From a virus, in the IMG/VR virus record IMGVR_UViG_3300025141_000484, positions 1-30,835 of that record: a stretch of 30,835 nt of DNA; one strand, given 5' to 3'. Below, in pieces: positions 3,260 through 30,824 of this stretch (positions within the stretch are counted from its first letter, which is position 1; each line of letters opens with the position of its first letter). The position numbers were made by a program, and so were the translations under genes. The notes beneath the pieces are model-generated. The model saw only the letters and a program-made list of their open reading frames with translations. It was not told where the DNA came from and did not search any database.

Positions 3260-4828
3260 CTAATGTTTTACTATGGCATAGTTCGTGGTGATCAAAGTCG
3301 AAGCCACTGAGACAGCGTTTTCAATCGCAGAAATTGTAACCTTAACAGGATCAATTACACCACAAGAAAAAAGATCTTCAGTCTTTCGAGTCATGAAATT
3401 ATACCCATGGCCGGCTGCTGATGAAGATACGTGTTGATAAATTATATCAGGCGACTCTCCTGCGTTTAAACACATTTGGTTCAGTGGGGCTCGGCACGAT
3501 TCGAGTACAATGTTAATGCCAAGCTGTTGTTCGTTAGCGCCGGTTAGTAGTTTAGATTCGCTAAGCTTTGCTAGTGTGGCTCCGCCACCAACAATCATTC
3601 CCATCTCTTGTCCAGACTTTACTGCTGCCAGTGCGTCTTCGACTCGGTGCTTCTTCTCAATCATCTCGATCTGAGATGCCGCACCAACTCGTATGACAGC
3701 AACGCCAGATGCAAGCCTAGTAATGCGCTCTTGTAGACGTTCGCACTCTTTGAGAGAATCCGTCTGTGTGATCTCTGTCTTGATCGCCTCGATTCTTTCG
3801 TCCGTTTCATCATAATCTCCTTTGCCTCCAACTATGGTAGTCCATCCCTTATCCACAGATATCGATTTAGACTGTCCAAAGTGCCCTAATTTAACATCTT
3901 TTAGCTGTAAACCATCTTCCCTAGTCAATAGGGTAGCCCCAATAGACAAGCACAAATCTTTTAGTATATTACGACGTTCTTCACCATATCTGGGTGCTTT
4001 TACAGCGGCTACCTTCATGGTTCCTCGGACTGAGTTCATTATGAGGGCAGCGAGAGCTTGTCCTTCTATCTCGGAGGCCACGATTAATAATGGTCGGGAC
4101 TCTCTCGCTGCTAACTCTAATGTTGGATAAATCTGCTCGACATGTTCAACCTTCTGATCCGTGACCAGAATCAGAGGTTCGTCATATTCCACACAACCTG
4201 TACGTTCATTTGTAATGAAAGCAGTTGCAGCATAGCCTGAATCAAATCTGAAGCCTTCAATCAGATCCAACGAGGTCTTCATTGATCTTGCTTCTTCGAT
4301 GATCACAGAGCCATCCTTGCCTGCTGAGTCTACAGCGGTGGCTACCAGATCTCCAATTGTTTCATCATTGTTCGCAGATATAGTTGCGATGTTCATGATG
4401 TCTTCTTTGGAGCGAATAGGTGTTGCTTGTTCTTTAAGCTTACCAACGATAAACTCACATGCTACATCCATCCCTCTCTTGAGTTCAATGGGAGACACGC
4501 CGGTCGCAATGTACTTTTGTGCTCCTTTGATCATTGCTCGTGCTAGAACGGTTGTTGTGGTTGTTCCATCACCAGCGGTGTTTGCGGATTGTTCTGCTGC
4601 TTGCTTGACGATCTGTGCTCCGACGTTTTGGATTGGATCATCAAGTTCGATGAACTTTGCTATTGTTACTCCGTCTTTCGTAATAACCGGAAGGTTCTCT
4701 TCCTTGTGATAGAGGATAACATTCCTCCCTTTTGGTCCAAGGGTTGATCCGACATTGTCAGCGAGTATATCAACTCCCTCAATTATTTTTTGGCTTAGCT
4801 CGTAGCCGTTCACATAGTGTTTGCTCAT
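3260..4828 (-). CDS. groEL: Chaperonin GroEL (phage-encoded)
   Basis: A 522-residue group I chaperonin. Key elements are present: VITKDGVTIAK with the Asp52 equivalent, AGDGTTTTTVLARA with Asp87, the apical segment EGFRFDSGYAATAFIT, PLLIVASEIEGQALA, VAAVKAPRYGEERR, and the ATPase aspartate in HRVEDALAAVKSG just before VGGGATL. It should form an ATP-driven folding ring in the cytoplasm. The C-terminus stops at NYAIVKH, so the flexible Gly-Gly-Met tail of bacterial GroEL is missing. ATG at 4828 was chosen because GGAGG lies 4 nt upstream; an in-frame ATG at 4849 lies closer to the promoter and lacks one. Its own near-consensus promoter sits at 4858-4886. A GroES-like gene lies 26 kb away, not next to it. 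Confidence 0.97.
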   Translation of the reverse strand: MSKHYVNGYELSQKIIEGVDILADNVGSTLGPKGRNVILYHKEENLPVITKDGVTIAKFIELDDPIQNVGAQIVKQAAEQSANTAGDGTTTTTVLARAMIKGAQKYIATGVSPIELKRGMDVACEFIVGKLKEQATPIRSKEDIMNIATISANNDETIGDLVATAVDSAGKDGSVIIEEARSMKTSLDLIEGFRFDSGYAATAFITNERTGCVEYDEPLILVTDQKVEHVEQIYPTLELAARESRPLLIVASEIEGQALAALIMNSVRGTMKVAAVKAPRYGEERRNILKDLCLSIGATLLTREDGLQLKDVKLGHFGQSKSISVDKGWTTIVGGKGDYDETDERIEAIKTEITQTDSLKECERLQERITRLASGVAVIRVGAASQIEMIEKKHRVEDALAAVKSGQEMGMIVGGGATLAKLSESKLLTGANEQQLGINIVLESCRAPLNQMCLNAGESPDIIYQHVSSSAAGHGYNFMTRKTEDLFSCGVIDPVKVTISAIENAVSVASTLITTNYAIVKH

Positions 4829-4857
4829 TTGGCCTCCATGGTTTAACACTTATTTAT

Positions 4858-4886
4858 ATTATAACTTGTTCTTAACTGTTTGTCAA
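4858..4886 (-). promoter_or_regulatory. Sigma70-type promoter of groEL
   Basis: Reading the minus strand, TTGACA (4886-4881) is followed by a 17 nt spacer and TATAAT (4863-4858). Both hexamers match the sigma70 consensus exactly. The TGA stop of the upstream 475-residue gene lies inside the -35 box (4885-4883). Transcription should start near 4851, about 23 nt before the groEL ATG, leaving room for the GGAGG site. This makes groEL separately transcribed from the gene before it. Confidence 0.9.
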
Positions 4887-6310: not shown

Positions 6311-7181
6311 TCTTTATTTCCTCAATAAGTTGCGCTATGTCTAGCCCAGCACAATCGATCTTAGTCTTTTTAAGATGATAATGAGAGATAAATCCCTTAT
6401 ATGTGCCTCTGACTGCTGTACTATAAGTAGTTGTTGAATCAGGTGTTTTCAAAGGAATGTCTGCTGCTTTATGGACTGCTTCCATAAGTGCTTTCAAAGC
6501 TTGAAGCTGAACATCATAAAATCCCAAGAACGGTTTGAGCGTTGAGCCATGAACTTTTGCGTTATCCCAAATAGGTCTTTCACCAAATCCGTTCTTGACA
6601 TACCAAGCTTGATGCTTTGGATAGTAAGCATTTGCAATCTCTACACCAACAGATGCTGCATTCCATTTAGATGATCCTGCGTGGTACGCTATGTGATTCA
6701 TATCGAGCAACTGGTAGATGGATCCGTCGTTATCGATAAGAAAGTGGACTGCTAGCCCACGGTTTTCCAAGACTCTCCAAGTAGACTTCGAGTTGAGACA
6801 AACGTCCCAATGACATACGAAGTTCTTAATATCTCGCTTCTCAACTACCTTCTTGTAGCCTTTAGTGGATTTCATTCCACCAAACATAAAGGGAAGATAT
6901 ACTCTGTCCCACTTGATATCAAAGTAGTCACTATTATATATGATACTTGTGTTATCGTGACCCGGTATATTATCCTTTCTATACTCCAAGGTTGACTGCC
7001 GGTCGGTCCACACCCTTCGGTAAGTTCCCGGACCGCACAGCCCATCTGCTTTCAGGCCTGATTCTTTTTGATATGCTTTGATTGCCTTCGTCAGTTCCTC
7101 GTCAAAGTCAGAACACCCGAACCACGAAGGTCTCCAGCCGAGCTTCGCTGCCGAAGCTTCATTGTAAAATTCTGCATCCAT
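6303..7181 (-). CDS. Endolysin: N-acetylmuramoyl-L-alanine amidase with PG-binding domain
   Basis: A 292-residue modular endolysin. Residues 1-55 form a peptidoglycan-binding domain (LTKAIKAYQKESGLKADGLC, then GPGTYRRVW). From about residue 115 comes an amidase_2 (T7 lysozyme type) domain that cleaves the MurNAc-L-Ala bond: zinc ligands His in NFVCHWDV, His in FISHYHLKK and Cys in KIDCAGLD, plus the AYHAGSSKWNAASVGVEIAN core. There is no signal peptide, so it needs a holin to reach the wall. Its ATG overlaps the clpP stop as TAATG, with GAGG inside the end of clpP. The PG-binding domain at the N-terminus is the arrangement seen in several phages of Gram-negative hosts. Confidence 0.93.
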   Translation of the reverse strand: MDAEFYNEASAAKLGWRPSWFGCSDFDEELTKAIKAYQKESGLKADGLCGPGTYRRVWTDRQSTLEYRKDNIPGHDNTSIIYNSDYFDIKWDRVYLPFMFGGMKSTKGYKKVVEKRDIKNFVCHWDVCLNSKSTWRVLENRGLAVHFLIDNDGSIYQLLDMNHIAYHAGSSKWNAASVGVEIANAYYPKHQAWYVKNGFGERPIWDNAKVHGSTLKPFLGFYDVQLQALKALMEAVHKAADIPLKTPDSTTTYSTAVRGTYKGFISHYHLKKTKIDCAGLDIAQLIEEIKNG

Positions 7182-7834
7182 TATATTACCTCGTCTGCTA
7201 AACCGTATTCAACAGCTTCCTCCGCTGTTAGGTATACGTTAACCTTTTGATCAAGCATCTTTCTGATTTGCCTCTTGGTCAGGTTGGTCTCGTGGGCCAA
7301 TGCTGACACGTACATGTCTTGAAGATGTTGGATTTCTTCCAGTTCGTTCTCGAGATTATGAATGGTCCCCAAGTTACCAGCAGAAACTGAATGGATCATG
7401 ACTCGACAATTACGGAAAATTTTCCGGCGTCCTTTTGTGCCTGAAGCTAGCAGGAGCGTGCCTGCTGACATGATCTTACCCATACCGATGGTTTCAATAT
7501 CGCAATCTTGCTTTACAAATCTCATTATATCATGCACAGCAAACATATCATCTGCTGATCCTCCATAAGTTGATATGTAAAACTTGATAGAATTGTCGGC
7601 ACCTTCATCATCTTTTTTATGACCATGCAGCATGAGCAAGCCAGCAACCATATCACCTGATCTTTCTTCGGTGACGTCTCCATATAACATCATCGTTCTC
7701 ATATCTTTTCCCTCAGCACCAGCTAGCATCTCCAACACTTGGACGGTTGCTTCTGTTTCAGCGAGGGCATCGCTTGCTTCTGCTTCTTCGATGGGTATCG
7801 GTTCTGCTTTTTTCTTATCTAATATTGTAAACAT
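7181..7834 (-). CDS. clpP: ClpP-like serine protease
   Basis: A 217-residue member of the S14/ClpP family. The catalytic triad is Ser123 in GKIMSAGTLLLASG, His148 in CRVMIHSV and Asp195 in RKMLDQKV; the oligomerisation-type STYGGSADD loop and AEEAVEYGLADEVI end are also present. It would form a proteolytic barrel that needs a AAA+ unfoldase (ClpX/ClpA), probably from the host because none is seen here. The first 45 residues are acidic and unlike the usual short propeptide. A clpS gene lies at 18.3 kb, suggesting a Clp role; but ClpP-fold proteases also serve as prohead proteases in some phages, and a scaffold-like gene is close by. AAGGAGG precedes the ATG. Confidence 0.93.
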   Translation of the reverse strand: MFTILDKKKAEPIPIEEAEASDALAETEATVQVLEMLAGAEGKDMRTMMLYGDVTEERSGDMVAGLLMLHGHKKDDEGADNSIKFYISTYGGSADDMFAVHDIMRFVKQDCDIETIGMGKIMSAGTLLLASGTKGRRKIFRNCRVMIHSVSAGNLGTIHNLENELEEIQHLQDMYVSALAHETNLTKRQIRKMLDQKVNVYLTAEEAVEYGLADEVI

Positions 7835-8215
7835 TTAGCCTCCTTGTTTGATATGCTTTTCAATGCTTTTCATCAGTGTTTCCCAGTCGTTAAACTCAAT
7901 TAAATGAGAAAACGACTTAGGAAAGTTTGATGTTATTGTTCTTACAATTTTTCTTTTAAATATGTTTATTTCTTTTTCATCTATTTTTTGTTGTAATTCG
8001 ATTTGCTTTTCTGTTTTTCCTGATTTTTCTAGCTCGTACCTTTTAAGTTCTTGGAGAGCGTAGATATCTTGAACCACGTTCGCTAGAAACAAAAGAGTCT
8101 CCGCAAGTACTCTTTTCAAGAGCATCACGGAAGACCCTAGGCTGAACATGTAGATGAACAGTGTGTGGCTAAACCAGCCAATTGCGAATATACAGATGTA
8201 TAATAGAAATGTCAA
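7835..8215 (-). CDS. Membrane protein with coiled coil, unknown function
   Basis: A protein of about 126 residues with an N-terminal hydrophobic hairpin (FLLYICIFAIGWF and TLFIYMFSLGSSVM), then a charged helical region (ELKRYELEKSGKTEKQIEL) and a C-terminal domain ending EFNDWETLMKSIEKHIKQGG. The start is uncertain. The promoter at 8260-8288 predicts transcription from about 8253, which excludes the GGAGG before an in-frame ATG at 8254. I therefore prefer TTG at 8215, which has GGGGG 4 nt upstream; a leaderless ATG at 8254 is the alternative. It abuts clpP with no gap. Similar membrane-anchored helical proteins occur in large marine phages, without known function. Confidence 0.65.
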   Translation of the reverse strand: MTFLLYICIFAIGWFSHTLFIYMFSLGSSVMLLKRVLAETLLFLANVVQDIYALQELKRYELEKSGKTEKQIELQQKIDEKEINIFKRKIVRTITSNFPKSFSHLIEFNDWETLMKSIEKHIKQGG

Positions 8216-8222
8216 ATTGCCC

Positions 8223-8256
8223 CCAAAATAAAAGGATGGGTTTAAGCCGCCCATCC
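8223..8256 (-). terminator. Hairpin terminator after the acidic protein gene
   Basis: On the minus strand GGATGGG (8256-8250) pairs perfectly with CCCATCC (8240-8234) across a 9 nt loop and is followed by TTTTATTTT. This fits a rho-independent terminator for the gene at 8295-8831. The promoter at 8260-8288 starts transcription inside the 5' arm, so transcripts begun there would carry only a shortened stem. Confidence 0.65.
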
Positions 8257-8259
8257 TCC

Positions 8260-8288
8260 ATTATATCATATTGGTTTACTTGTGTCAA
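8260..8288 (-). promoter_or_regulatory. Sigma70-type promoter before the membrane protein-clpP-endolysin block
   Basis: TTGACA (8288-8283), a 17 nt spacer and TATAAT (8265-8260) on the minus strand match the sigma70 consensus, with an extended -10 (TGA before TATAAT). The predicted start of transcription is about 8253, inside the terminator hairpin arm. It should drive the block from the membrane protein through clpP, endolysin and the 475-residue protein. Confidence 0.88.
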
Positions 8289-11008: not shown

Positions 11009-14000
11009 TCATCCTAAAAGGGCCCAAGAGGTATCAACGTTGCCATTGGTTGAAAATCCCCAAGTTTGATCGTATCTGGGCTTGAGTAGATATGGTCTGT
11101 TGATATGTATTATGTCTTTATCAATGTTTACACCCCAACATCTAATCTGAGTTTCTACTGAGTTTGAGTCGATGACCTTGATTACGTAGAAGTTTTTTCC
11201 ATTTCTTGTCTTCTTCTTAAGAACAGACCTTGGAATACACCAACACAATTGTAGCTCTGGGTCAAACTCAGAAATTGGAGGAAGATATCTCTCATCCAAT
11301 CTCCTCTGAACATCGGGGGAAATTACAATCGACATCGGAAATATCCCTGTGAGGTCAGCTAAAAACTCTATCTTCTCTTGTTCTGAGAATGATCCTTCTG
11401 GCCTGTATGTTTCTATGTTTTCATCAAGCTTCTTTTTCGTTCTTGGCTTGTCAAGACAAACGGCAGACCAAAAATGTTTGTCGCCGGTAAAACGCTCATC
11501 AATTAAATCATTCATTGCTCCTGCCCTGCAAAGTACATCAAAGGCTTTCTTATTTAGCTTGGCGTACTTTATATCCGGATGGAATAACATTTCCTCAACA
11601 GTGTTAAAGGGTCTGTGTGACATGATTTGTTCCAAAGCAGAAGCTCCTAGGCCTTTGATGGTCGTTAGTGGTGCTATCAATGTCTTATCGTCTTGAATCT
11701 TCCAAGATCCCTCCGAGTAATTAACGTTCAGTGGTTTGATATCATACCCATGTTGTTTAGCGAGGTTGATCGCTTTCTCTTTACGAGTTTCTGGTTCTCT
11801 ATCTAGGAAAGAGGCGACCCATTCAACAGGATAGTTGTGACATAACCAAGCACACTGGTATGATATGATCGAATATGAAACAGCATGTGACTTATTGAAA
11901 CCGTAGCCAGAGAAATATTCAAAGGTTTGCCAAAGCTTTCGAGCCTCTCGTTCTTTAATACCCTTAAGGATACACCCAGATACAAACTTATCAAAGATTG
12001 CTTCTTTGACCTCATTGCCTTTGCCTGTTCCTTTCTTGGTCAAGATCTTACGAAGCAAGTTAGCTTCATCCATCGTGATACCTTCTCCAAGTCTATATGC
12101 TAGCATAGCAATTTGCTCTTGGAAGATAAGAAACCCATAAGTTTCAGATGTTACTTCTTCAACAATTGGATGGAGATACTTGATGTTTGTTGGATCACTG
12201 ATTGCGTCAACATAATCCTTATCTACACCAGCCGATAAGGGGCCGGGACGATAGATAGAAGTGATAGCAGCAAGGTCAATAATAGACTTGGGCTTCACTT
12301 GTTGTGCAAATGTTTGTGCTCCGCTTTCAGTAAACTGAAAGATCCCTACCCACTTTCCTTTGTCAAATATGTGTTTGTATATATCCTGATTGTTTAGATC
12401 AATATTGTTTGGGTGCAACTCTTTATCATAAAAGCTCTTAATGTCTCCAAAGGTTGGCGAGGTAATATCAAAGTGTCTCTGTAATACTCTGCCTATACAG
12501 TCTTCGATCATACGCAACGTAGATAGTCCAAGGATATCAAATTTAATGAATCCCATGGGTTCTAATTGGCGAACATTTTGACCTTCAGACCAAGGGGTTT
12601 GTCTTACCCCTTTGGAAGAGATCAAGGGCATAAACTTGTCTAATTGTTCACCGATTACAACTCCACCGGCGTGTCTGGAGCATGAGCGATAAGAGCCGTG
12701 AAGAGCTTCGCAGTGACTCTGAACGTCTGGGTATTTTTTGAAGAAATCCTGTAGAGTATCTGAGAACTCTACAACTTCTTCAAAGGTTGGCGTATAGACT
12801 CCGGCTTTGATACCATGCTTCTTTTTAGCCATCGGTGTGGCTTCAGCCAACATCTTACTGGTGACGTTATTCACTTCACGAAACTCAATCTCATAGAACT
12901 TGGATATGTCTTTGATCAATGAACGAAGCTGGAGCGTATTCCAGTTAGAAATAGGAACAACCGTTGAGCTTCCCCACTGATCGATCAGAATATCTTTAAG
13001 TACCATAGGATCGGATACATCATAATCAATATCAGGATAGTCCGTAGCATCCGAACGTAAGAAACGTGAGAATAAAAGACCATACTTAATTGGATCAACC
13101 TGAGTAATGCCCAGAGCATAAGCAACCAGAGAACCAGCCGCAGAGCCTCTACCGGGCCCCGATAATTGTACTTCATTTGTTTTATCCGCTATTGCTTTCA
13201 TAGTTAGAAAGTATTTTGAAAAACCACGATCAGCAATAACTTTGAGTTCGTGCTTCAATCTCTTCTCATACTCATGGACCAGTGATCTGGACCTAGTTTG
13301 CTTTTGTGTTAAGCCCTGTTCTTTAAGTATAGAAAACAACCCCTTGGACGAAAGTCGCTCAAGATATGTATCTTCTTCATATCCCGCTGGGACGACAAAG
13401 TCTGGAAGACGAACTGTGGTGTCTGGTAAGAAATCTTCGATGCGGTCAAACGCAATACGATAAGACTCTTCAATAGACTGTTCTACCAAGTCATCGTCAT
13501 ACTCTTGATCACATGCTTCGGAATACCCACAGTAAGCTTCCCACATTTGAAGCCCGTTCTTAGGATACAGTTCATACTCCATCTCTTGAACATCAGTCGG
13601 AATGTTCATGTCTAGCCACTCAGGCTTTCCTTTTCCAATCCAACCAAGTCGCTTGTATAGCTCTCGGTCCTTCCAAGCATCAGGGTTTGGATAGTGAGAG
13701 TCAGCGGTTGATACAAGCTTGAGGTCGAACTCTTTAGCAATACGAATGATGTATTGATTGAGTTCATGTTGCTCAGGGACAGCGTTCCACTGAAGTTCTC
13801 CGTACCAACGATCACCAAAGATGTCTTGCATTTTTTGAGTTTGTTCTCTCATGCAATCCATAACAGCCTCGTCACCGTTCTCTCGCTCCTGCCAGTAGCA
13901 TCCGGCATAGATCCCACCGAGACAAGCAGACATAGCAATAACACCCTCACCATACTTCGCGAGCAAGGCATAGTCAACACGAGGTTTACGATAGAAGTAA

Positions 14001-14770
14001 TCTCCATTATAAGACTCTGATATCATTTTGAAGATGTTATTGAGTCCTGTCTGGTTCATAGCGAGAAGCACCAAGTGACGAGTACGATTGATGTCCGACT
14101 TGGACAGGCCTTTAGACTCGCCATCGGCCTCGATGTTTGTACCAGAACGCCCAGCATCAATCTGCTTAGCTTTCTTCTTGTCTTGTCGATACTCCTCAAT
14201 CTTAACCTTCCACTCATCGACTGAGGGAATGAAGTAAGCCTCAACTCCGAATATCGGCTTAAAATCTTTACCTGCTGCTTTCATCCTCTTAGCATGCAGG
14301 ACTTGATAAGCAAAGCCGTTCATGTTACCATGATCAGTCAATGCAAGTGCTTCGCAACCATTTTCATATGCGAAGTCCATGTGTTCTTGCGGATAGCCAA
14401 ACCCGTCAAAGGGTGAGCCTACACCGCTATGTGCGTGTAAGTTTACAAAACTAAGTATGCTGTTTTTTCTCTGGTTGTTTTTGCTTCTCTCAACCACTTC
14501 AGCTATTATTTCGACGGTGCGGGTGAGATCCTTGGGTGTTGGTTCCCGACTAGACTTAGCACTAATGGTATATTCAAAGCAGCCATCTCTATGTTTGTGA
14601 GCGTTTATCTGCCAGTCAGTTGTGATCTCGTCAATGTCTCTTTCTGAGAAGCCAAGCTTGTCTAAGTGTTTAACTGGAAAGGTCGCAATGGTCTCTCCTT
14701 GGCTCTTCACTACACCATCGTAATTGCTGTGCAGTGGTTTGATATTTAATACTACGTATCCTGATTTCAT
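11009..14770 (-). CDS. dnaE: DNA polymerase III alpha subunit (DnaE type)
   Basis: A 1253-residue C-family replicative polymerase. About 105 N-terminal residues have no counterpart in cellular DnaE; then comes a PHP domain with HxH at 112/114, LTDHGNMNG, GVEAYF and STADSHY, so its metal site may be intact. Palm residues are GPGRGSAAGS, PDIDYD (Asp580, Asp582) and Asp745 in IKFDILGL; SRHAGGVVIG, IYRPGPL and GYGFNKSHAVSYS follow. An OB-fold-like end contains FYVIKVID. It should copy phage DNA in the cytoplasm; no clamp, loader, helicase or primase is seen in this window. It is preceded by a near-consensus promoter and CGGAGGAAAT. Among phages a DnaE-type enzyme is less common than A- or B-family polymerases. 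Confidence 0.96.
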   Translation of the reverse strand: MKSGYVVLNIKPLHSNYDGVVKSQGETIATFPVKHLDKLGFSERDIDEITTDWQINAHKHRDGCFEYTISAKSSREPTPKDLTRTVEIIAEVVERSKNNQRKNSILSFVNLHAHSGVGSPFDGFGYPQEHMDFAYENGCEALALTDHGNMNGFAYQVLHAKRMKAAGKDFKPIFGVEAYFIPSVDEWKVKIEEYRQDKKKAKQIDAGRSGTNIEADGESKGLSKSDINRTRHLVLLAMNQTGLNNIFKMISESYNGDYFYRKPRVDYALLAKYGEGVIAMSACLGGIYAGCYWQERENGDEAVMDCMREQTQKMQDIFGDRWYGELQWNAVPEQHELNQYIIRIAKEFDLKLVSTADSHYPNPDAWKDRELYKRLGWIGKGKPEWLDMNIPTDVQEMEYELYPKNGLQMWEAYCGYSEACDQEYDDDLVEQSIEESYRIAFDRIEDFLPDTTVRLPDFVVPAGYEEDTYLERLSSKGLFSILKEQGLTQKQTRSRSLVHEYEKRLKHELKVIADRGFSKYFLTMKAIADKTNEVQLSGPGRGSAAGSLVAYALGITQVDPIKYGLLFSRFLRSDATDYPDIDYDVSDPMVLKDILIDQWGSSTVVPISNWNTLQLRSLIKDISKFYEIEFREVNNVTSKMLAEATPMAKKKHGIKAGVYTPTFEEVVEFSDTLQDFFKKYPDVQSHCEALHGSYRSCSRHAGGVVIGEQLDKFMPLISSKGVRQTPWSEGQNVRQLEPMGFIKFDILGLSTLRMIEDCIGRVLQRHFDITSPTFGDIKSFYDKELHPNNIDLNNQDIYKHIFDKGKWVGIFQFTESGAQTFAQQVKPKSIIDLAAITSIYRPGPLSAGVDKDYVDAISDPTNIKYLHPIVEEVTSETYGFLIFQEQIAMLAYRLGEGITMDEANLLRKILTKKGTGKGNEVKEAIFDKFVSGCILKGIKEREARKLWQTFEYFSGYGFNKSHAVSYSIISYQCAWLCHNYPVEWVASFLDREPETRKEKAINLAKQHGYDIKPLNVNYSEGSWKIQDDKTLIAPLTTIKGLGASALEQIMSHRPFNTVEEMLFHPDIKYAKLNKKAFDVLCRAGAMNDLIDERFTGDKHFWSAVCLDKPRTKKKLDENIETYRPEGSFSEQEKIEFLADLTGIFPMSIVISPDVQRRLDERYLPPISEFDPELQLCWCIPRSVLKKKTRNGKNFYVIKVIDSNSVETQIRCWGVNIDKDIIHINRPYLLKPRYDQTWGFSTNGNVDTSWALLG

Positions 14771-16695: not shown

Positions 16696-17649
16696 TTATA
16701 AAGAATCTAAATAAATAACGCCCGATACAATGGCCACAGATAATGCCAGACCAATCATAATCTTCATGAAGTCTCTTGCAAGAATTGGAAAGATCATCTT
16801 GATTTTCTTTCCTTTATTGAAGTTGCGATAGACAGCCATCTCGCGGCCAGATAGTAGCCCAACAAAAACCCATGTTGTGCTCATGGGAATCGAGCTATGT
16901 ATTTTAAAATACCAGAGGATGAGGGCGTAAAAGAAATCGATTATACAAGCGGAACGGATAAACCTTGTGCCGCTCTTTGATAAAACAATCTCCTGTATTC
17001 TTCCTCCATTTGTGTAAAATAGGTGCCCTAGTCCGCCCATGAGAACTGCTATAACTCCAAGCATTGTCATCAAGCTTACCCCATCTCTGGGGAGATAAAC
17101 AAAAATGTTAGCAATGTCATGAGACAGCCACATGTACCATAGAAAGCCAGTAGAGCACCACTGTGCCACCGACCAATATCTTTTATGTTCTTCTCTTACC
17201 GACTGCTTTTCGTTAAGAAATCTAGACAGTATCATCCAAATAGCATATGCAGCCACTGCGGCGACGCCATATCCTAATGCTGATTTCATTATGATCTTCT
17301 CTAAGACAAGGCCGTTTGAAAAAGCACTAAGGGTTAACAACGTGGTTGATACTGGTATACCGAGGCGAGTGAAGCCAAGTAACAAGGCTGGTGCGAGGGC
17401 ATGGTACCAGTAAAACTGCTCAGGGAAGGGGATTCTATCCAGTCTTCCAAATGCAATATCGTTCTGCGACCATCCGTACAGAAGGGTTGCAGCTAAGATT
17501 GCCGAGGTGAAGATCCACATCCAGTACCACTTAACCTTCTTACTGTTGGAACTAATAAACGTTCCAAGTGTTTGGGCACTATCGTTTCCAATAACAGAGT
17601 ATGCTGCCAATAGAAAGCCGATAGTGCCATATATCGTTGATAAAGACAT
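16696..17649 (-). CDS. PiT-family-like inorganic phosphate transporter
   Basis: A 317-residue polytopic membrane protein with roughly eight to nine TM segments. Two inverted-repeat signatures of PiT/PHO4 transporters are present: SVIGNDSAQTLG near the N-terminus with GIPVSTTLLTLS, and SHDIANIFVYLP with IPMSTTWVFVGLLSG in the second half. It probably brings inorganic phosphate into the infected cell by cation symport, supplying phage DNA synthesis. It is shorter than typical bacterial PiT proteins (400-500 residues) because the central loop is short. AAGGA precedes the ATG, and it follows the HAD gene by 17 nt in the same operon. Confidence 0.88.
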   Translation of the reverse strand: MSLSTIYGTIGFLLAAYSVIGNDSAQTLGTFISSNSKKVKWYWMWIFTSAILAATLLYGWSQNDIAFGRLDRIPFPEQFYWYHALAPALLLGFTRLGIPVSTTLLTLSAFSNGLVLEKIIMKSALGYGVAAVAAYAIWMILSRFLNEKQSVREEHKRYWSVAQWCSTGFLWYMWLSHDIANIFVYLPRDGVSLMTMLGVIAVLMGGLGHLFYTNGGRIQEIVLSKSGTRFIRSACIIDFFYALILWYFKIHSSIPMSTTWVFVGLLSGREMAVYRNFNKGKKIKMIFPILARDFMKIMIGLALSVAIVSGVIYLDSL

Positions 17650-18029: not shown

Positions 18030-18325
18030 TTTTCCTCCATATATTTTATTAATTCATAAATGTTTCCGAACGGATCTCGTTTATATACAGAGACCGTTCC
18101 ATCTCTGTGTTTCTTTGCTCGGTCCCCTTCCTCAAAACCATCCACTTCAAATGCTATGTGTTCGGGGTGTTGTGATTTTACAACGAATGCGAGCTTGATG
18201 TTCTCCATCTGTACGAAACTCCATGTCTCGTCAACATAGAGTATCTCGCCTTCAAACTCATCACGATACCACTCTGCTGCTTCTTTTGGGTTTTCAACTT
18301 GTAGTGCTATGTGATCAATCTTCAT
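18026..18325 (-). CDS. VOC (glyoxalase/bleomycin-resistance) fold protein
   Basis: A 99-residue protein with the paired beta-alpha-beta-beta-beta modules of the vicinal oxygen chelate superfamily. It opens MKIDHIALQVENPKEAAEWY (His5 a likely metal ligand), has PEHIAFEVDG in the second module and DPFGNIYELIKY with a terminal Glu ligand. The family includes lyases, dioxygenases and drug-binding proteins, so the reaction cannot be named. It is coupled by ATGA overlaps to the clpS gene before it and the HAD gene after it. Confidence 0.85.
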   Translation of the reverse strand: MKIDHIALQVENPKEAAEWYRDEFEGEILYVDETWSFVQMENIKLAFVVKSQHPEHIAFEVDGFEEGDRAKKHRDGTVSVYKRDPFGNIYELIKYMEEK

Positions 18326-18648
18326 TCAGCCTCCATCGTCACCAACAGTGGGTGGCTCAGCATCTTCGCAAAATCCATAGACTGGATGACTTTCATCTCC
18401 GCCACTTCTTTTGAATAGATACCGGCGATACCTTTACCTGAATTGTGAACAGCGTCGGTTAGATATCTAGCTTCCGCTTCGGACTTGTAAAAGACCTCTC
18501 GCAATATCTTTACGACATCGGGTGCGTATGTGTAATCATCATTCCAGATGATAACTTTATATTTGCTGGGTGGTACAACCTTTTCTCGGTCCATTGTCCC
18601 GATGCCGGTTCCCACTCCATGTTTCTTATCTTTTTTTCTTTGTGTCAT
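18322..18648 (-). CDS. clpS: ClpS, N-degron adaptor for Clp protease
   Basis: A 108-residue ClpS. The core aligns without gaps to the E. coli protein: PPSKYKVIIWNDDYT (Asn34, Asp35, Asp36), DAVHNSGKGIAG with His66, YSKEVAEMKV and HPLLVTMEAE. It should bind proteins with destabilising N-termini and hand them to ClpA/ClpP. Two pocket residues differ: the position of E. coli Met40 is Ala and that of Met62 is Thr, which would widen the specificity pocket. A basic N-terminal extension (MTQRKKDKKHGVGTG) precedes the core. It sits in an ATGA-coupled chain between an HNH gene and the VOC gene, 10 kb from the phage clpP. Confidence 0.95.
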   Translation of the reverse strand: MTQRKKDKKHGVGTGIGTMDREKVVPPSKYKVIIWNDDYTYAPDVVKILREVFYKSEAEARYLTDAVHNSGKGIAGIYSKEVAEMKVIQSMDFAKMLSHPLLVTMEAE

Positions 18649-19109
18649 TCTTTCTCCTTGTATTTATTGTATCGTTTTAGCATCTTGCACACGCTTTTAT
18701 TTGTCCATTTGCGGCCTCTGGGTGTTGTTATATCTTGTTCGTTTAGCTCCTCTGCGATGGTTGTGAGCGTGGCTTTTCCGCTTTTACTCACAGAAATCAG
18801 TTCACCTTTTACTCGTTCAATTTCCGCACCCAAAGTCATGGCTGACTGGTGTCCTCTGGCTATATTTGCTTCTCTTGCTTTTGCTCTATCTAAGCTTTCT
18901 GGATTCCCTATCTTTTCTCCTCTGGCTCGTTTGGCTGCCCATATATCTTTCATAAGTTGGCTAAAATGTATGCCCTTACCATCACTGCCGTGAGCCTTTC
19001 TGTGACACTGGTAACATAGTGCAACGGTCTTGGTGCCACCTTTTGATCTTGGCACAACGTGGTGTTCTTGAAGATCTTCTGTTGTTTCACATTCAAAGCA
19101 TTTCTTCAT
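18645..19109 (-). CDS. HNH zinc-finger protein with recombinase-like C-terminal domain
   Basis: A 154-residue protein. Residues 1-42 form an HNH nuclease with zinc Cys pairs (MKKCFECE, LCYQCHRKAHG) and the EHHVVPRSKGG core. The C-terminal part, IAEELNEQDITTPRGRKWTN, then KSVCKMLKRY, matches the helix-turn-helix segment common in serine recombinases and in some homing nucleases. It is likely a free-standing homing endonuclease that nicks or cuts a specific DNA site. It is coupled by ATGA overlap to clpS downstream and to the GIY-YIG gene upstream, so both nucleases were inserted into the operon without breaking it. Confidence 0.85.
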   Translation of the reverse strand: MKKCFECETTEDLQEHHVVPRSKGGTKTVALCYQCHRKAHGSDGKGIHFSQLMKDIWAAKRARGEKIGNPESLDRAKAREANIARGHQSAMTLGAEIERVKGELISVSKSGKATLTTIAEELNEQDITTPRGRKWTNKSVCKMLKRYNKYKEKE

Positions 19110-19753
19110 GTTACCTCCTTGTAAGATATTATTATATTATAAAGGTCATTGCCGTCATCTATTCTTCGCTGTATTTCTCTTGCTTCCTCTATCATCAACA
19201 TTTCTCTGTCCTGTGGGTATTCTTTTATAACTGACCACTCGAACGCTTCTTGTCCATATTTATCAAAGTCTTGTTGAAGTTTGTGATTTTTATGTTTTTT
19301 TGTTTTAAGTATCCTAATGTGTTGTTTCCAGCGTAGCTTTCCTCTAAATGTTTGTCCGATGTAAACTTTGTTATTAATTGTGTTTTTTATTTGATAAATA
19401 CAGGCTGGTTCGGCTTCTCTTATTTGACGACTATATGCTTTAGCATAAGACAGTTTTTTTTCTTTGTTCTCAGAATAATATTTTCGACCATAAGTCCGCC
19501 TGTGATCAACATACTCTTGATCAGAGTAGTTTTGTTTGTGACGAAGTCGATTTCTTTCTATAACATTTGTTCTTTTATTATATTGCTTATCGTATTTTCT
19601 TTTAGCTTCTTTCTGCTGTTTTGTTGAATTACGTTGATTCTGTTGTTTATTTGTACAGGCTTTACATGACGGCCTTCGTCCATCTTTTTTTGATTTATCT
19701 TTATGAAATTCCTCTAAAGTCTTTTCAGTTTCGCATTTTGTACACTTTTTCAT
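19106..19753 (-). CDS. GIY-YIG homing endonuclease with N-terminal zinc finger
   Basis: A 215-residue protein. Residues 1-40 hold a zinc ribbon (MKKCTKCETEKTLEEFHKDK, then PSCKACTNKQ). A long Lys/Arg/Gln-rich DNA-binding linker follows (residues 40-115). The GIY-YIG catalytic domain is at about 116-180: ACIYQIKNTINNKVYIGQT, RWKQHIRILKT, and DKYGQEAFEWSVIKEY. This is typical of T4-type Seg/homing endonucleases that spread their own gene between phages. It shares its first 20-residue layout with the neighbouring HNH protein. It is only 1 nt from the ada gene stop. Confidence 0.92.
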   Translation of the reverse strand: MKKCTKCETEKTLEEFHKDKSKKDGRRPSCKACTNKQQNQRNSTKQQKEAKRKYDKQYNKRTNVIERNRLRHKQNYSDQEYVDHRRTYGRKYYSENKEKKLSYAKAYSRQIREAEPACIYQIKNTINNKVYIGQTFRGKLRWKQHIRILKTKKHKNHKLQQDFDKYGQEAFEWSVIKEYPQDREMLMIEEAREIQRRIDDGNDLYNIIISYKEVT

Positions 19754-19754
19754 G

Positions 19755-20648
19755 TTACCTCCTAAACAGGGCTTGGCGGCCCCAATTGTAAGTTTTCTCT
19801 ACGTCCTCATCAGTCAAACCACATCGGAGCATCGAGTGCATAATCTCAACTGATAGGTCTGTGTTAGACAGTAGGGTATTATCCGCACAGATAGAGACAG
19901 GTATATCCTGCCTTATCCACTCCTTAATAGGGTGATCGCCGATATTATCAATGACCCCTGTGTGTAGGTTTGATGTGATACATGCTTCTAACACAACGTT
20001 CTTTTCTCTAACAAGATCAACAACCCTCTGGTTTTCAAGTATGGTTGTTCCGTGGCCGATCCTCTGAGCGTGGAGGAAGTTTATAGCAACTTCAATCTCT
20101 TTTGGCGACCTGCCTTCTGCGGCATGAACGGTTCGTCCGATACCATACCGTCGAGCTTTTTCAAACGGCTCAATATAGTCAAAGATATTCCACTTGTGGG
20201 TTGGCAAGGGTCCACCGGCAAGGTCAATGCCAACAACTCTTGGTCTGGGCTTGGCCACTTCGACCAGCTTGTTGAGCATCTCTGGTGGCTCTCCGTAGAG
20301 GCCGCAAAGGATGAGGTTTGAATCATGGTCCAAACCATCGATCGCGGCGTCAACAATCCTTTCAATAGATGCGCCACCATGCAACTGTGGTGCAAATCTT
20401 ATTTCCATGTGGTGCACACCAATCGCTTCTGCGTCTTCGCAAATTTCATTGGCTACTCTGGTGACGTGCTGAGGTTGTTGCAAAACCGACAGGGTCAGTT
20501 CAAATTTCTTAAGGGCGCTTTGTAAACTCATCCCTTTGTGAAACGTAATTTCTCTTGGAATAGGTAACGGTTTTCTCTGTCTGGTAGCAAGCTGTTGAAG
20601 CGTGTGAAACCGTATGGAGCCATCTAAATGGCAATGTAGTTCGTTCAT
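19755..20648 (-). CDS. Adenosine deaminase-like protein
   Basis: A 297-residue metal-dependent adenosine deaminase. Signature segments appear in order: ELHCHLDGSIR (His5, His7 zinc ligands), VVGIDLAGGP, RTVHAAEGR with a catalytic Glu, AQRIGHGTTI (His), LEACITSNLHTGVI and PVSICADNTLLSNTDLS with the late zinc Asp. It converts adenosine or deoxyadenosine to inosine products, and so may recycle purines released from host nucleic acid. It is about 35 residues shorter than E. coli Add; another amidohydrolase such as adenine deaminase or a related enzyme cannot be ruled out. CGGAGGAAAC precedes the ATG. Confidence 0.9.
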   Translation of the reverse strand: MNELHCHLDGSIRFHTLQQLATRQRKPLPIPREITFHKGMSLQSALKKFELTLSVLQQPQHVTRVANEICEDAEAIGVHHMEIRFAPQLHGGASIERIVDAAIDGLDHDSNLILCGLYGEPPEMLNKLVEVAKPRPRVVGIDLAGGPLPTHKWNIFDYIEPFEKARRYGIGRTVHAAEGRSPKEIEVAINFLHAQRIGHGTTILENQRVVDLVREKNVVLEACITSNLHTGVIDNIGDHPIKEWIRQDIPVSICADNTLLSNTDLSVEIMHSMLRCGLTDEDVEKTYNWGRQALFRR

Positions 20649-23800: not shown

Positions 23801-24685
23801 TTAGTAAATAGTCCCCGTACCAACGACTTCCCAACTCATGTGTGTCTCGATATATGAATTATTTATATCCGTCTCTACTAGGTCCACTTTGTGTCTTTCG
23901 AGGTGAATCGCAGCCAAGGATCCCGCTTGATAAGCTTGTAAATATTGTGCTGGAATAACCATTGAACCATTGTCTGGTCCGGCACAAGTTACATAGCCTA
24001 GAAACTGGCTTCCATCCCACGAATACACCGCTACGGTGATCATGAACGTTGAATCAGCACTTGTGGGCGCCCAAGAGAATGTAACACCGGATCTATAGAT
24101 AGGCGCTTCAAAAGCATAGCTAGGGTCGACCCATAGCATTGTATATGGCTCAATAAAGTCAAACCCATGAGTGGACACAAAATCATATCCACCCTCTTCT
24201 GTTGCGACATTGTAGGTAGCATCTCTCAATAGTTGAGACTCCCAAATGCTTGTTGTCTCATAAACTCCGGCGACGATCTGTTCGGCTCCGAAGTTATGTG
24301 CACCAGCATCAACTATAATACTTGGACCAACATCCATTGGATTGGTGGATGGACTAACCCCTATGAGATTGGTGGTACACTGATCATTAGCTGGGATCCA
24401 GCTTGTATGATTATCAGAAATAGGCTGGTGGAATTGTGCAGTAAAACTTACTGAGATTTCTTGTGATTCGCCCATACAAGCAGGGCATGCGACTTGTCTA
24501 AGGTGTAGACTTGTATAGCCCGTAACTCCCGACCTTTGCGGTTCTTGAGACGGTTCAACTGATGGTTGGGTTGGTTCAATCACAACCTCCTGTGTGTCTT
24601 TTGTGGCTGAGTCCGTGGGATTGTCGTAAACCTTTACGATTCCGATATCTCCTTGGCGGCATGCCAACAGCATCATTAGTAACAT
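23801..24685 (-). CDS. Secreted lipoprotein of unknown function
   Basis: A 294-residue predicted lipoprotein. The signal peptide is extremely short, MLLMMLLAC, with an LLAC lipobox, followed by a 45-residue Thr/Pro/Ser/Glu/Gln-rich linker (PTDSATKDT, PTQPSVEPSQEPQ). The rest is beta-rich (VSFTAQFHQ, GVTFSWAPTSADSTFMITVA), with possible disulphide Cys at RQVACPACMG and GYVTCAG. No catalytic motif is seen. ATG at 24685 was preferred to the ATG one codon upstream for spacing from GGAG; both give a lipobox. The short signal and linker resemble Myxococcota-type lipoproteins, so recent acquisition from a host is plausible. It would sit on the cell surface or in the periplasm. Confidence 0.8.
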   Translation of the reverse strand: MLLMMLLACRQGDIGIVKVYDNPTDSATKDTQEVVIEPTQPSVEPSQEPQRSGVTGYTSLHLRQVACPACMGESQEISVSFTAQFHQPISDNHTSWIPANDQCTTNLIGVSPSTNPMDVGPSIIVDAGAHNFGAEQIVAGVYETTSIWESQLLRDATYNVATEEGGYDFVSTHGFDFIEPYTMLWVDPSYAFEAPIYRSGVTFSWAPTSADSTFMITVAVYSWDGSQFLGYVTCAGPDNGSMVIPAQYLQAYQAGSLAAIHLERHKVDLVETDINNSYIETHMSWEVVGTGTIY

Positions 24686-25302
24686 CATAACTCCAATTTA
24701 AATAAATGATTTAAGAATTGCTTAACAACCCTTTGCATACAGTTCTTGTCCTCTTCACATTCAAAAAGCATCCAACTGTATGTTGTTTCGTTTTTGGCGA
24801 CCTCTTTTCTAAGAGAGTCGATCTCTTCCCTCATAAGGGGAAATATGTCCTTGAAATTGTCAGGCAGGATATCAAGGTCGGATGCTGCTTCGAGTATAAC
24901 CGACCACTCTCCGTTATTATATGCCTCAGAAACTTTAGCAAACTTTTCTGCATTTCCTTCCTCCTTATCTGGGTGTAATTCTCTGGCTAATCTCTTGTAG
25001 ATTTTTGAAAACTTATTAGCTTTTCTCTTGATCTCTATCTTCTCTGTTGGTATCAGAACGTCTTTTTCATCAAACTTGCTGTTAATTGGATTATCAGGTA
25101 TTATCTGGTCTACTCTGCTTGAGTGTTTTTTATTTAAAGCATCAAGGTCAACATCATTATTTGCACACCATTCTCTGTAAAAAGATTCAAAGTCAAGATG
25201 TGCTGTGAGTAATACTTCTTTTTGGTAATCCAATTCAGATCGAAGATAGGTAACCTCCTTTAAAAGCTTTTGGTATTTTCTAAGATTTATCGTATAAGAC
25301 AT
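24685..25302 (-). CDS. J-domain (DnaJ-like) protein
   Basis: A 205-residue protein with a J-domain-like segment in the middle: FSKIYKRLARELHPDKEEGN, then AEKFAKVSEAYNNGEWSVIL, with HPD at residues 110-112. HPD is the loop that stimulates the ATPase of Hsp70/DnaK. The N-terminal half is a coiled coil (YLRSELDYQKEVLLTAHLDF). The C-terminus has LRKEVAKNETTYSWMLFECE. It may recruit host DnaK to phage proteins. The start is uncertain because the -10 box of its own promoter overlaps the ATG at 25302; TTG at 25233 is an alternative. It overlaps the lipoprotein start at its end. Confidence 0.82.
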   Translation of the reverse strand: MSYTINLRKYQKLLKEVTYLRSELDYQKEVLLTAHLDFESFYREWCANNDVDLDALNKKHSSRVDQIIPDNPINSKFDEKDVLIPTEKIEIKRKANKFSKIYKRLARELHPDKEEGNAEKFAKVSEAYNNGEWSVILEAASDLDILPDNFKDIFPLMREEIDSLRKEVAKNETTYSWMLFECEEDKNCMQRVVKQFLNHLFKLEL

Positions 25303-25329
25303 TATAACACACTCATTCGGAAATGTCAA
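25301..25329 (-). promoter_or_regulatory. Sigma70-type promoter over the J-domain gene start
   Basis: TTGACA (25329-25324), 17 nt spacer, TATAAT (25306-25301) on the minus strand, both perfect, with TGT before the -10. It lies over the 3' end of the upstream gene and its -10 overlaps the ATG at 25302, so transcripts would start near 25294, inside the annotated coding region. Confidence 0.85.
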
Positions 25330-26218
25330 GTCCAATTCTATGAAATTCTGAATATTTCATGTGTTTAGGCCTCTTGATGATGTTGGACAGGTTCGAGGAT
25401 AAATAGTTCTTATATTCTTCCCAAGATCTCAAATCATAAAACTCATCAATATTGACAGAATTATCTGTGTCTAGATCTAAGTCCATAAACACATCTTTGA
25501 TATCAAACCAGCGAGCAGAATATCTTTCCTCCAAAGGCAGTCTTTCGGTTGGAGCCAGCTTGCCCGGCTCAACGATGTTCTTGAACTCGCCTGTTCCTTT
25601 TCTAATTTCTCTCCGAAACTTGACGAACTCGTCTTTACCAAATGTAAAAGAGATAGGCAGGTTGTCCTCCGGAGACATACCTTTGTATGTTACGTAGAAG
25701 TTCTGGGCTGAAGAGATCTTCCTTCTGTATTCTCGAAGCACCATTGGATTGTACATTCCATATGGAAACGATACAAAGTACTTATCTGGTATCAACCATT
25801 TCGATATATTAGCAGATACTTTGAAGGCATTGAGCGCTCCATAGATAACAGACCAGCTTAAACAATCTCTTCTGTCTCTATCCTTTGGATGAATCGGTAC
25901 ATAATAGATTGGAATTCTTATCTTGTGCTCTGACGGGAACGCTTCGTGTTTTCTATGAATCCAGACAGGATCTTGTACGAAGTCTCCTATCCTTTGTCTT
26001 ACGAATCTTGCTGTCTCATGATGCATGCAGAGCCAGATTGTATCACAACCAGCGTAGGCACACTCAAGTATTGCCGCTTCCAGCATTGTGTAGTTGGGTG
26101 CTACCGGCATCATAAAATCCGGCCACTCCATTCCATATTCTAGTGGCTGTCCAGCACAGGGAATTATCCCAGCAAGGTGGAAGCCATGCCCCTTAAAAGG
26201 CTTGTCGTTAATTTCCAT
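25313..26218 (-). CDS. Conserved phage protein, nucleotidyltransferase-like
   Basis: A 301-residue protein. The start FHLAGIIPCAGQPLEYGMEW resembles the G-x-x-P-A-x-G nucleotide-binding loop of sugar-nucleotidyltransferase-like folds, followed by YTMLEAAILECAYAGCDTIW and a long motif IPIYYVPIHPKDRDRRDCLS, then WSVIYGALNAF. I recognise this layout as common in large marine phages, where it is usually called a nucleotidyltransferase-like protein; activity has not been established by anything seen here. It overlaps the upstream gene by 55 nt, a longer overlap than normal, and I found no good ribosome site for the ATG at 26218. Confidence 0.75.
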   Translation of the reverse strand: MEINDKPFKGHGFHLAGIIPCAGQPLEYGMEWPDFMMPVAPNYTMLEAAILECAYAGCDTIWLCMHHETARFVRQRIGDFVQDPVWIHRKHEAFPSEHKIRIPIYYVPIHPKDRDRRDCLSWSVIYGALNAFKVSANISKWLIPDKYFVSFPYGMYNPMVLREYRRKISSAQNFYVTYKGMSPEDNLPISFTFGKDEFVKFRREIRKGTGEFKNIVEPGKLAPTERLPLEERYSARWFDIKDVFMDLDLDTDNSVNIDEFYDLRSWEEYKNYLSSNLSNIIKRPKHMKYSEFHRIGLDISE

Positions 26219-28235: not shown

Positions 28236-28379
28236 TCAATTTTCTTCATACTCATTTAACAGTTCTATCAGCTTATCATCAAATGGTGCTTCAATCTGCT
28301 GCTCCTTATGGTTCTTAAGTAAATAACCATTCAAATACCCAAGCGCAAAGCATCCGATATAAAATATTATTTTTTTCAT
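28236..28379 (-). CDS. Small membrane protein, 47 aa
   Basis: A 47-residue protein with an N-terminal membrane segment (KKIIFYIGCFALGYLNGYLL) and a charged C-terminal tail (DDKLIELLNEYEEN). AGGAG lies 6 nt before ATG 28379. It lies in tandem with the next KIGDLV gene and follows the TM-containing gene before it by 11 nt. The function is unknown. Confidence 0.6.
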   Translation of the reverse strand: MKKIIFYIGCFALGYLNGYLLKNHKEQQIEAPFDDKLIELLNEYEEN

Positions 28380-28390
28380 GTTTTCTCCTG

Positions 28391-29113: not shown

Positions 29114-29834
29114 TCTTCATTTTCCTATAAGAGTTCACTGACACCGGCCAGAGATCTGTTGCAATTTCTAAGCACGCTTCAGCTACTTTCTGAATTTCCC
29201 ACTGGGCTCCTTCGTGTGTTCGAAGGTCTATAAACTTAAGTAGATTTGAAAGATTGCACGTTCCGTAGTATTCAGTATACAAATTTTGTGGAAGTATCAT
29301 TCTGGCTTGTTCTCGGCAAACACCTCTATCTAAGAAATCATTATAAGCAGCAAGACACTTGTTTGTGCAGATCTCCATATATTCAGAAACAGTTATGTTC
29401 GATGGCATCATTGCCCCATCATCGATGTCCCACATCTTTGGATTAATCAATTCTTCGGGGTTTGATGCTTGTCTGTTCGAACTATGTTGTGTTCGAAAAC
29501 TCTTTGGCAAGTAGAAAGCCATATTTTTCTCTGTATATCGTCTAGAAATTTCATTATAACTCCATGTTCTATGACGGTGGTGCTGAGAACGTATAAAGAG
29601 AGGCACGACAAATTTGAAACTAACGACATTATGCTCAAATGTCGAAGTGTGTTTGTGCTTAACGAGATATTCAACCAATCGTTTATCCCTATCGCTAAGT
29701 TCATCTCTTGTATTACCAAAACTGACACGAGCACTATTAACAATGGTAAGGTCAGTACCCATGTGGTCAACATAGCTAACCGAACCCACATCATCACCGT
29801 ATATAGAAATTGTTCTACTATAGCTCTCACTCAT
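29103..29834 (-). CDS. thyX: FAD-dependent thymidylate synthase ThyX
   Basis: A 243-residue ThyX, which makes dTMP from dUMP using methylenetetrahydrofolate, FAD and NADPH. The ThyX motif is complete: HHRHRTWSYNEISRRYTE (R-H-R-x-x-S-x-N-E-x-S-x-R-Y). Other family segments are STFEHNVVSFKFVVPLFI, CREQARMILPQNLYTE and LRTHEGAQWEIQKVA. Its length is close to bacterial and phage ThyX. It takes dUMP made by the phage dUTPase at 9.2 kb and so raises dTTP supply during replication. The start overlaps the preceding gene by 4 nt. Confidence 0.97.
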   Translation of the reverse strand: MSESYSRTISIYGDDVGSVSYVDHMGTDLTIVNSARVSFGNTRDELSDRDKRLVEYLVKHKHTSTFEHNVVSFKFVVPLFIRSQHHRHRTWSYNEISRRYTEKNMAFYLPKSFRTQHSSNRQASNPEELINPKMWDIDDGAMMPSNITVSEYMEICTNKCLAAYNDFLDRGVCREQARMILPQNLYTEYYGTCNLSNLLKFIDLRTHEGAQWEIQKVAEACLEIATDLWPVSVNSYRKMKNEK

Positions 29835-30547
29835 GAATCCCTCTCACTTTTGCCAATTGGAAATTCGGGTCTTTCAGTATCCTGTGCGACGTGCTCGTCC
29901 TCTTCGGAGAAGAATGGAATAACAAACTTTTTATCACCAACTTTGGAGTAAAACTCTGTTTTGTTCTGTACCTCTGCTCCTCTCAATACCATATCTCTGG
30001 TTTCTGAAATTTCATAGTCATCAATACTCATATTGGGCTTGCCCATTTTGGTAGGCTTAAGATCTATCATGTCAAACCTCATTCTATAAAGAGCAGGGTC
30101 ATTCTCGCCATATGTTTGAGAGTAAAACTTTTGGCCGACAATAACCGAATCTTGAAGGTATTTTTTCCCTAAAAAGATCATATCAGTCTTCATTGACTCT
30201 CTCATTTTTTTATCGCCAATAACCATTAGCGAATTCTCCTCACCGCCATATTCTCCTAAGATCTGATGGTACTCGTACCCCTTGTGGTTCAAATCTATCT
30301 TCAAATAGCTGAGCATCGTATTATCATCCCACGGGAAATCAGCACCTGCCGCTCTTGGTGGGTTCTCAGCACTTATGAATGCAATTTGAGAGGCTCCATC
30401 CGGTCCCGATAAGGAGTCAAAAGCAGCCATAGCATCAGATGATGCCTGTGTGGGTGGAAGCTCAGCTTCTCCCAAAGGAGCCTTCAGTTCTTCCTTCTTA
30501 ATGATCTCCATTATAAGAGACCTAATATTATCTTCAGTCAATTTCAT
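29831..30547 (-). CDS. Probable virion-internal protein, possible DUF3293-like region
   Basis: A 238-residue protein starting MKLTEDNIRSLIMEIIKKEE, the short amphipathic type of N-terminus also seen in other genes here, followed by PLGEAELPP (an L-G-E/A site). Residues 50-110 have AFISAENPPRAAG, LSYLKIDLNHKGYEYHQILG and EYGGEENSLMVIG, a plan that resembles DUF3293 proteins; this match is by eye and tentative. ATG at 30547 is chosen because GGAGG lies 8 nt upstream; the longer frame from 30568 lacks one. It overlaps the GroES-like gene by 14 nt, so coupling is likely. Confidence 0.65.
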   Translation of the reverse strand: MKLTEDNIRSLIMEIIKKEELKAPLGEAELPPTQASSDAMAAFDSLSGPDGASQIAFISAENPPRAAGADFPWDDNTMLSYLKIDLNHKGYEYHQILGEYGGEENSLMVIGDKKMRESMKTDMIFLGKKYLQDSVIVGQKFYSQTYGENDPALYRMRFDMIDLKPTKMGKPNMSIDDYEISETRDMVLRGAEVQNKTEFYSKVGDKKFVIPFFSEEDEHVAQDTERPEFPIGKSERDS

Positions 30548-30824
30548 TTTCAATACCTCCATAGACATAGTTTTCTAACACTAAATAGTAAGTTTGACCT
30601 AGAATCTCAATCTCTTCAATCATAGATCTTTGTACTATAATGTTCATATTCGTTATGATATCTATTTTGCAATCACAAGAAAAATCTTTAACCTTGCAAA
30701 GCACATATGGTGATTTCTGCTTCTTGTAGTCAGCGGGTAGCAAGAATGAGTGTTCTTTCTCTTGCTCGTCCTCTTCTAATATATCGACAAGGACGTGTCT
30801 GTTAAACGGTGTGAATCTGTTCAT
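30534..30824 (-). CDS. GroES-like co-chaperonin
   Basis: A 96-residue protein with the GroES plan: NRHVLVDILEEDE as the first strands, a charged mobile-loop-like region with hydrophobic SFLLPADY (compare the IVL of GroES and the III-type loop of T4 gp31), LCKVKDFSCDC, NMNIIVQRSMIEEIEILGQT, and a closing YYLVLENYVYGGI. It is close to the usual 95-110 residues. It would cap a GroEL ring and complete folding of capsid or other proteins, perhaps with the phage GroEL at 3-5 kb. Identity is by fold pattern, not by strong residue match. GGAGGTAAT precedes the ATG. Confidence 0.8.
   Translation of the reverse strand: MNRFTPFNRHVLVDILEEDEQEKEHSFLLPADYKKQKSPYVLCKVKDFSCDCKIDIITNMNIIVQRSMIEEIEILGQTYYLVLENYVYGGIENEID

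Follow-up and report, generated by a model that had tools for sequence, protein, structure and literature searches.

Jumbo phages carrying several Clp and chaperone genes have already been published (PMC6102473, PMC7824862, PMC12619734). The jumbo phage Atu_ph07 encodes seven Clp-like proteins together with DnaJ and Hsp20 (PMC6102473), and a record search showed DnaK, several J proteins, ClpP and a ClpA/B-type ATPase in huge phages of about 640 kb. In a survey of 224 jumbo phages, Hsp60 and Hsp10 were found in entirely different phage sets, and several phages encoded ClpS "instead" of ClpP (PMC7824862). Here, we describe five genes encoding GroEL, a GroES-like protein, a J-domain-like protein, a ClpP-family subunit and ClpS in a linear IMG/VR contig of 30.8 kb (IMGVR_UViG_3300025141_000484; the whole stretch is called the window) and in related contigs, labelled G001, G003 and so on. 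On balance, we favour reading this conserved proteostasis segment of a T4-like lineage as a stand-alone chaperonin accompanied by three parts, ClpP, ClpS and the J protein, that would plug into host machines. An earlier note on this DNA held that phages carry one or two such genes, which is an understatement, as Atu_ph07, Vibrio phage 2.275.O and the ~640 kb phages carry larger sets; multi-gene proteostasis sets, and GroEL with GroES in phages, are already known. What is new is a conserved T4-like core segment that encodes a set of proposed plug-ins, with no phage unfoldase detected alongside them. The combination of GroEL and ClpS in one phage also appears to be new, as does, from alignments, a family of phage ClpPs with a Ser-His-Asn site.

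GroEL and GroES occur in one phage, as in the window, in Flavobacterium phage immuto, Bacteroides phage DAC23, and Vibrio phages 2.275.O and D506. However, groES lies just upstream of groEL in immuto and DAC23, whereas the pair is about 26 kb apart in the window. Among these four phages, ClpP was found in 2.275.O only, which encodes GroEL, GroES and ClpP plus its own ClpA/B-type ATPase, and a J protein was found in none. The jumbo phages Atu_ph07, Phosso and SCTP-2 all encode ClpP and ClpS, and the first two also a J domain, but they differ from the window in encoding ClpA/ClpX-type ATPases and a ClpP with a canonical triad. GroEL was not found in these three ClpS-bearing named jumbo phages, other ClpS records, which were short or of doubtful phage origin, being left out of the comparison. 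The lineage described here keeps Hsp60, Hsp10, ClpP and ClpS together without a detectable unfoldase, unlike the pattern of the jumbo-phage survey.

An open reading frame (ORF) and profile check placed the five genes, with lengths in amino acids (aa), as follows:

3260..4828, minus strand, GroEL (Cpn60), 522 aa from the ATG at 4828 (PF00118, 8e-60; phrog_5725, 2e-134)
7181..7834, minus strand, ClpP-family subunit with a predicted Ser-His-Asn site and a non-canonical N-terminal extension (PF00574, 7e-36)
18322..18648, minus strand, ClpS, N-degron adaptor, with Ala at the Met40 position (PF02617, 3e-22; ClpS entries of the PDB matched to 3e-17)
24685..25302, minus strand, J-domain-like protein, 205 aa from the ATG at 25302, with an HPD motif (lineage profile; AlphaFold2 model with a mean predicted local distance difference test score, pLDDT, of 85)
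30534..30824, minus strand, GroES/gp31-like co-chaperonin, 96 aa, with the mobile-loop motif FLLP (profile and fold)

The window is phage DNA. It contains genes for an endolysin, ThyX, a dUTPase, DNA polymerase III alpha and homing endonucleases, and contigs syntenic with it carry T4-type ribonucleotide reductase (RNR), sheath, portal and capsid genes. An origin from a host chromosome, which the earlier note had named as fatal to its proposal, or from contamination was rejected on the basis of this synteny, and the nearest bacterial ClpS found was at most 48% identical. With a 301-aa neighbour gene (25313-26218, minus strand) as query, 37 related loci were recovered, records of 185 and 196 kb among them. 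Its product, which has no convincing family match and was not found in named phages, marks the lineage, an uncultured family of large T4-like phages. The two large relatives encode a T4-type terminase, portal, gp21 protease, capsid and sheath.

The full set of five was present in conserved order on four contigs (the window, G003, G004 and G009). Subsets of the five were found on about 20 further contigs, with GroEL, GroES, ClpP and J together in G012, G015, G016, G018 and G025, and most of the five were also found in fragments and in the two large relatives. ClpS was restricted to a clade near the window, comprising 11 analyzed contigs (window included) and G036. GroEL identity ranged from about 48 to 93% across the lineage, and GroEL, GroES, ClpP and J stayed together over that divergence. 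The ratio of non-synonymous to synonymous substitution rates (dN/dS) was 0.04-0.17 where dS could be estimated, and by this sequence measure the proteostasis genes are under purifying selection. Judged by the recurrence of gene order and content on related contigs, the five-gene set is more than chance. An apparent split of GroEL in G004 was not a frameshift and corresponded to an assembly N-gap at 33133-33142. DnaK, ClpA, ClpX and Lon were all undetectable in the fragments and in the two large relatives, which may be incomplete, and the earlier note's view that the set draws on ATPases of the host, proposed there for ClpA/ClpX and DnaK, therefore stands.

The GroEL gene most likely starts at the ATG at 4828, preceded by GGAGG, and not at the GTG at 4849, to which the GTG-started ORF reaches. 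The protein scored 203 bits against a PF00118 cut-off of 34 and exceeded that of PRK12849 (570 vs 352), but just missed the TIGR02348 equivalog cut-off (560 vs 582). The ATPase residues D52, D87, T89-T91 and D398 were those of E. coli in 10/10 sequences, with K51 also kept. The full-length profile match and these residues bear out the earlier call of a complete GroEL. The C-terminal GGM tail is missing, and the inter-ring positions R452 and E461 are N452 and S461 in the window.

The GroES-like gene is complete (ATG at 30824) though located at the contig end. The window protein fell under the Pfam Cpn10 cut-off (14.5 vs 21.1), whereas that of G003 was over it (25.9). A profile built from 20 lineage members (33-82% identity) matched Chlamydomonas Cpn11 (8e-9) and bacterial GroES (6e-4) in the PDB, the best match being to Cpn11 in entry 7ekq, a Chlamydomonas chloroplast ClpP complex with co-chaperonins. 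The AlphaFold2 model (pLDDT 79) has a disordered mobile loop, and a Foldseek search with it returned only GroES/Hsp10 or 7ekq co-chaperonin-complex chains at ranks 1-35, T4 gp31 included, with a probability of 1.00 for gp31 (1g31) and GroES. In the lineage alignment, the mobile loop carries [FIV][LAV]xP, which we take to resemble the GroEL-binding tripeptide of GroES/Hsp10. The agreement of profile and predicted fold confirms a GroES/Hsp10-type protein, as first proposed, despite the low Pfam score of the window protein. It shares its predicted fold and disordered loop with gp31 but has no detectable sequence match to it, and the lineage encodes a cognate GroEL while T4 uses that of the host; a tblastn search against named phages gave no match. 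Together, the two proteins would form the phage's own chaperonin and lid, folding phage proteins such as capsid subunits.

The ClpP protein clearly exceeded the PF00574 cut-off (124 bits vs 20) and remained under the NCBIfam clpP equivalog cut-off (100 vs 308.6). Ser97 and His122 (E. coli numbers) were kept in 17/17 ClpPs. However, when aligned to E. coli ClpP, the Asp171 position was Asn in all 14 main lineage ClpPs, so that the intact catalytic triad reported earlier for this protein was a misreading. In 11 ClpP-family proteins of six other phages, this position was Asp in ten and Glu in one. The neighbouring Asp of LDQKVN is unlikely to replace it, as G015 and G025 have Glu there, in contrast to the invariant Asn. 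The R170 position, which adjoins the oligomerisation-sensor region, is Val in the phage ClpP. A second, divergent ClpP-like paralogue was observed in three distant relatives (G015:146714-147316, G018:9303-9905 and G025:125763-126395), near GroES/RNR or J; it keeps Ser-His-Asp, has no copy in the window, and is a possible partner of the Ser-His-Asn ClpP.

The closest described case is Listeria monocytogenes ClpP1, in which Asn replaces the catalytic Asp and the N-terminal chaperone motif is lacking; it forms inactive heptamers but is active with ClpP2, the mixed complex degrading substrate about 10 times faster and binding ClpX about 7 times more tightly (PMC5361862). The phage protein resembles it in the Asp to Asn change and in an unusual N-terminus, but ClpP1 is bacterial with its ClpP2 partner encoded in the same genome, whereas the window holds no partner. 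Because the same Asn goes with partner dependence in Listeria, we propose that the phage ClpP, without a canonical N-terminal motif, would most likely be weak or inactive alone and would act in combination with host ClpP, as a partner ring or subunit.

ClpS passed the Pfam cut-off (78.6 bits vs 23) and, in agreement with the earlier description, keeps the degron-binding core in the window (N34, D35, D36, T38, V43, V65, H66 and L99, E. coli numbers). The alpha-amino-group and pocket residues N34, D35, D36 and H66 were present in 11/11 lineage members, as was E79, and K84 in ten, with Arg in the other; E79 and K84 are presumably the ClpA-binding residues. At the Met40 gatekeeper position, the window and G001 have Ala, G002 has Phe and eight others have Met; a Met to Ala change there relaxes ClpS specificity. 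The best PDB match, Caulobacter 3g1b, also has Ala at the gatekeeper, the next-best Caulobacter entry having Met. In E. coli ClpS, Met40 excludes beta-branched residues (PMC12493166), and natural replacements of the Met gatekeeper are also seen in true ClpS proteins (PMC12493166, PMC7966870). Since the residues for N-degrons and for the ClpA N-domain are kept, the phage ClpS would be expected to dock on host ClpA/ClpC, steering it to N-degron substrates. Directly upstream of ClpS in the window are HNH and GIY-YIG endonuclease genes (18645-19753, minus strand), which look like mobile insertions, as G003 and G004 lack them there.

The J protein of the window scored 0.3 under the Pfam DnaJ cut-off (27.5 vs 27.8), while relatives reached 36.2 and 32.8. 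Its HPD was invariant in 16/16 members, down to 26% identity, and the lineage profile matched helix II-HPD-helix III of many J domains (best DNAJA1, 3e-8). In the model, helices 86-109 and 118-130 flank the HPD, with a long N-terminal helix ahead. Helix I was not detected, the profile matches starting at helix II, and a Foldseek search of the full model found no DnaJ, only helical noise. The J domain with HPD originally described therefore holds for the motif and its flanking helices but not for the whole domain; with the four-helix fold incomplete in profile and model, the protein is best called J-domain-like. A precedent is Rki, a J-domain protein with an HPD from the T4-related phage RB43 (PMC3486835), from which the window protein differs by its long N-terminal helix and a J remnant in mid-protein. 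We infer that it would present its HPD to host DnaK and redirect it, as Rki does.

The window contains six perfect TTGACA-N16/17-TATAAT sites, each of them on the coding strand, where Markov resampling predicted 0.035. They are given below with the gene that shares a unit with ClpP:

4886, 8288, 14820, 16056, 22184 and 25329, all minus strand, perfect sigma70 promoters near gene starts, most with an extended -10
4858..4886, minus strand, sigma70-type promoter of GroEL, TTGACA-17-TATAAT
8260..8288, minus strand, sigma70-type promoter of unit 8254-7181 (membrane protein, ClpP), perfect consensus
7835..8254, minus strand, small membrane-type protein directly upstream of ClpP in unit 8254-7181 (ORF and synteny)
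25301..25329, minus strand, sigma70-type promoter at the J start, perfect consensus

A perfect promoter also precedes GroEL in G001, G003, G004, G009, G012 and G025, and lies 67-70 bp before the ClpP ORF in G004 and G010. At the J gene, the -10 box overlaps the apparent ATG, so that either the true start or the gene served by this promoter is uncertain. Across 14 contigs, a perfect promoter preceded 24 of the 61 proteostasis genes, vs 65 of 1227 other genes (odds ratio 11.6; the relatedness of the contigs inflates the p-value of 5e-14). GroEL, GroES and J have such a promoter, as does ClpP in some contigs. These motifs suggest that the proteostasis genes are transcribed by unmodified host RNA polymerase, probably early. 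An Rfam scan and a tRNA scan gave no matches.

Several points weigh against a chaperonin with host plug-ins. J is clearly missing from G001 and ClpS from G012, and the G005 contig has GroEL as the only one of the five, so that joint action of the whole set is not a given. The hydrophobic pocket of ClpP that docks the IGF loops of ClpA/X is partly kept (Y62, F82 and L48 retained, Y60 and F112 each replaced by K), and therefore the phage ClpP may not bind an ATPase at all. Its active site was read from an alignment, and the large relatives are possibly incomplete, as mentioned above. Finally, the presence of ClpA and a compatible ClpP in the host is assumed.

The variable presence of these genes, the second ClpP paralogue in some relatives, and the separate transcription units, kilobases apart, would fit genes that were acquired independently, each of small benefit, and that form a loose collection sharing the window by coincidence in a gene-rich core region. 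We consider this rather unlikely, although still a serious alternative, given that GroEL, GroES, ClpP and J are kept together across wide divergence, under purifying selection and with a shared, unusual promoter enrichment. A tentative proposal, to which we give little credence as a whole, goes further than host plug-ins and combines three steps: a phage ClpP silent alone would be activated by host ClpP in a hybrid protease, raising host ClpA/ClpX activity; ClpS with its opened gatekeeper pocket would supply N-degron substrates that the host would spare; and the GroES-like lid could also cap ClpP, as the Cpn11 match in 7ekq might suggest.

The invariant and derived Asn, the Val at the R170 position and the eroded docking pocket could instead point to a decoy, in which ClpP enters and blocks host ClpP, shielding phage proteins, and ClpS jams ClpA or diverts it from its normal substrates; ClpS itself suppresses the degradation of SsrA-tagged substrates (PMC12493166). 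However, Ser and His are invariant in all copies, which is odd for a pure decoy, and in Listeria a triad with Asn is capable of activity within a mixed complex, so that we regard a decoy as improbable. That the ClpP-like protein is a head maturation (prohead) protease, leaving only the chaperones as a proteostasis set, was rejected as very improbable, for although PHROGs top-ranks such proteases (phrog_94, 3e-23), the 185 and 196 kb relatives encode a separate head protease of the T4 gp21 type (phrog_207, 1e-61), which lies next to portal and terminase and tens of kb away from ClpP, the ClpP neighbours are the membrane protein and the endolysin, and Pfam and NCBIfam favour ClpP proper.

Other genes of the window were also observed. 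A lipoprotein-type secreted trypsin/HtrA-like serine protease (449-1168, minus strand; Trypsin_2, 1.5e-15), conserved in relatives, may add a sixth, periplasmic component to the proteostasis set. An adenosine deaminase (19755-20648, minus strand, 2e-54) and an amidohydrolase/cytosine-deaminase relative (1215-2192, the sole large plus-strand gene) could be involved in nucleotide salvage or counter-defence. A multi-pass membrane protein (16696-17649, minus strand) with a weak phosphate-transporter match (PHO4, 0.004) is a possible auxiliary metabolic gene. The DNA polymerase III alpha (11009-14770, minus strand) is of bacterial type in a phage lineage with T4-type head genes, and, compared with some relatives, it has about 105 extra aa at the N-terminus.

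The natural Ala/Phe/Met gatekeeper series of the phage ClpS proteins offers a ready test of N-degron choice during infection. To our knowledge, the control of a compartmental protease by hetero-oligomerisation is known so far only between bacterial paralogues. The invariant Asn of the phage ClpP allows a sharp and inexpensive test of whether such a host protease can be converted by a virus in this manner.

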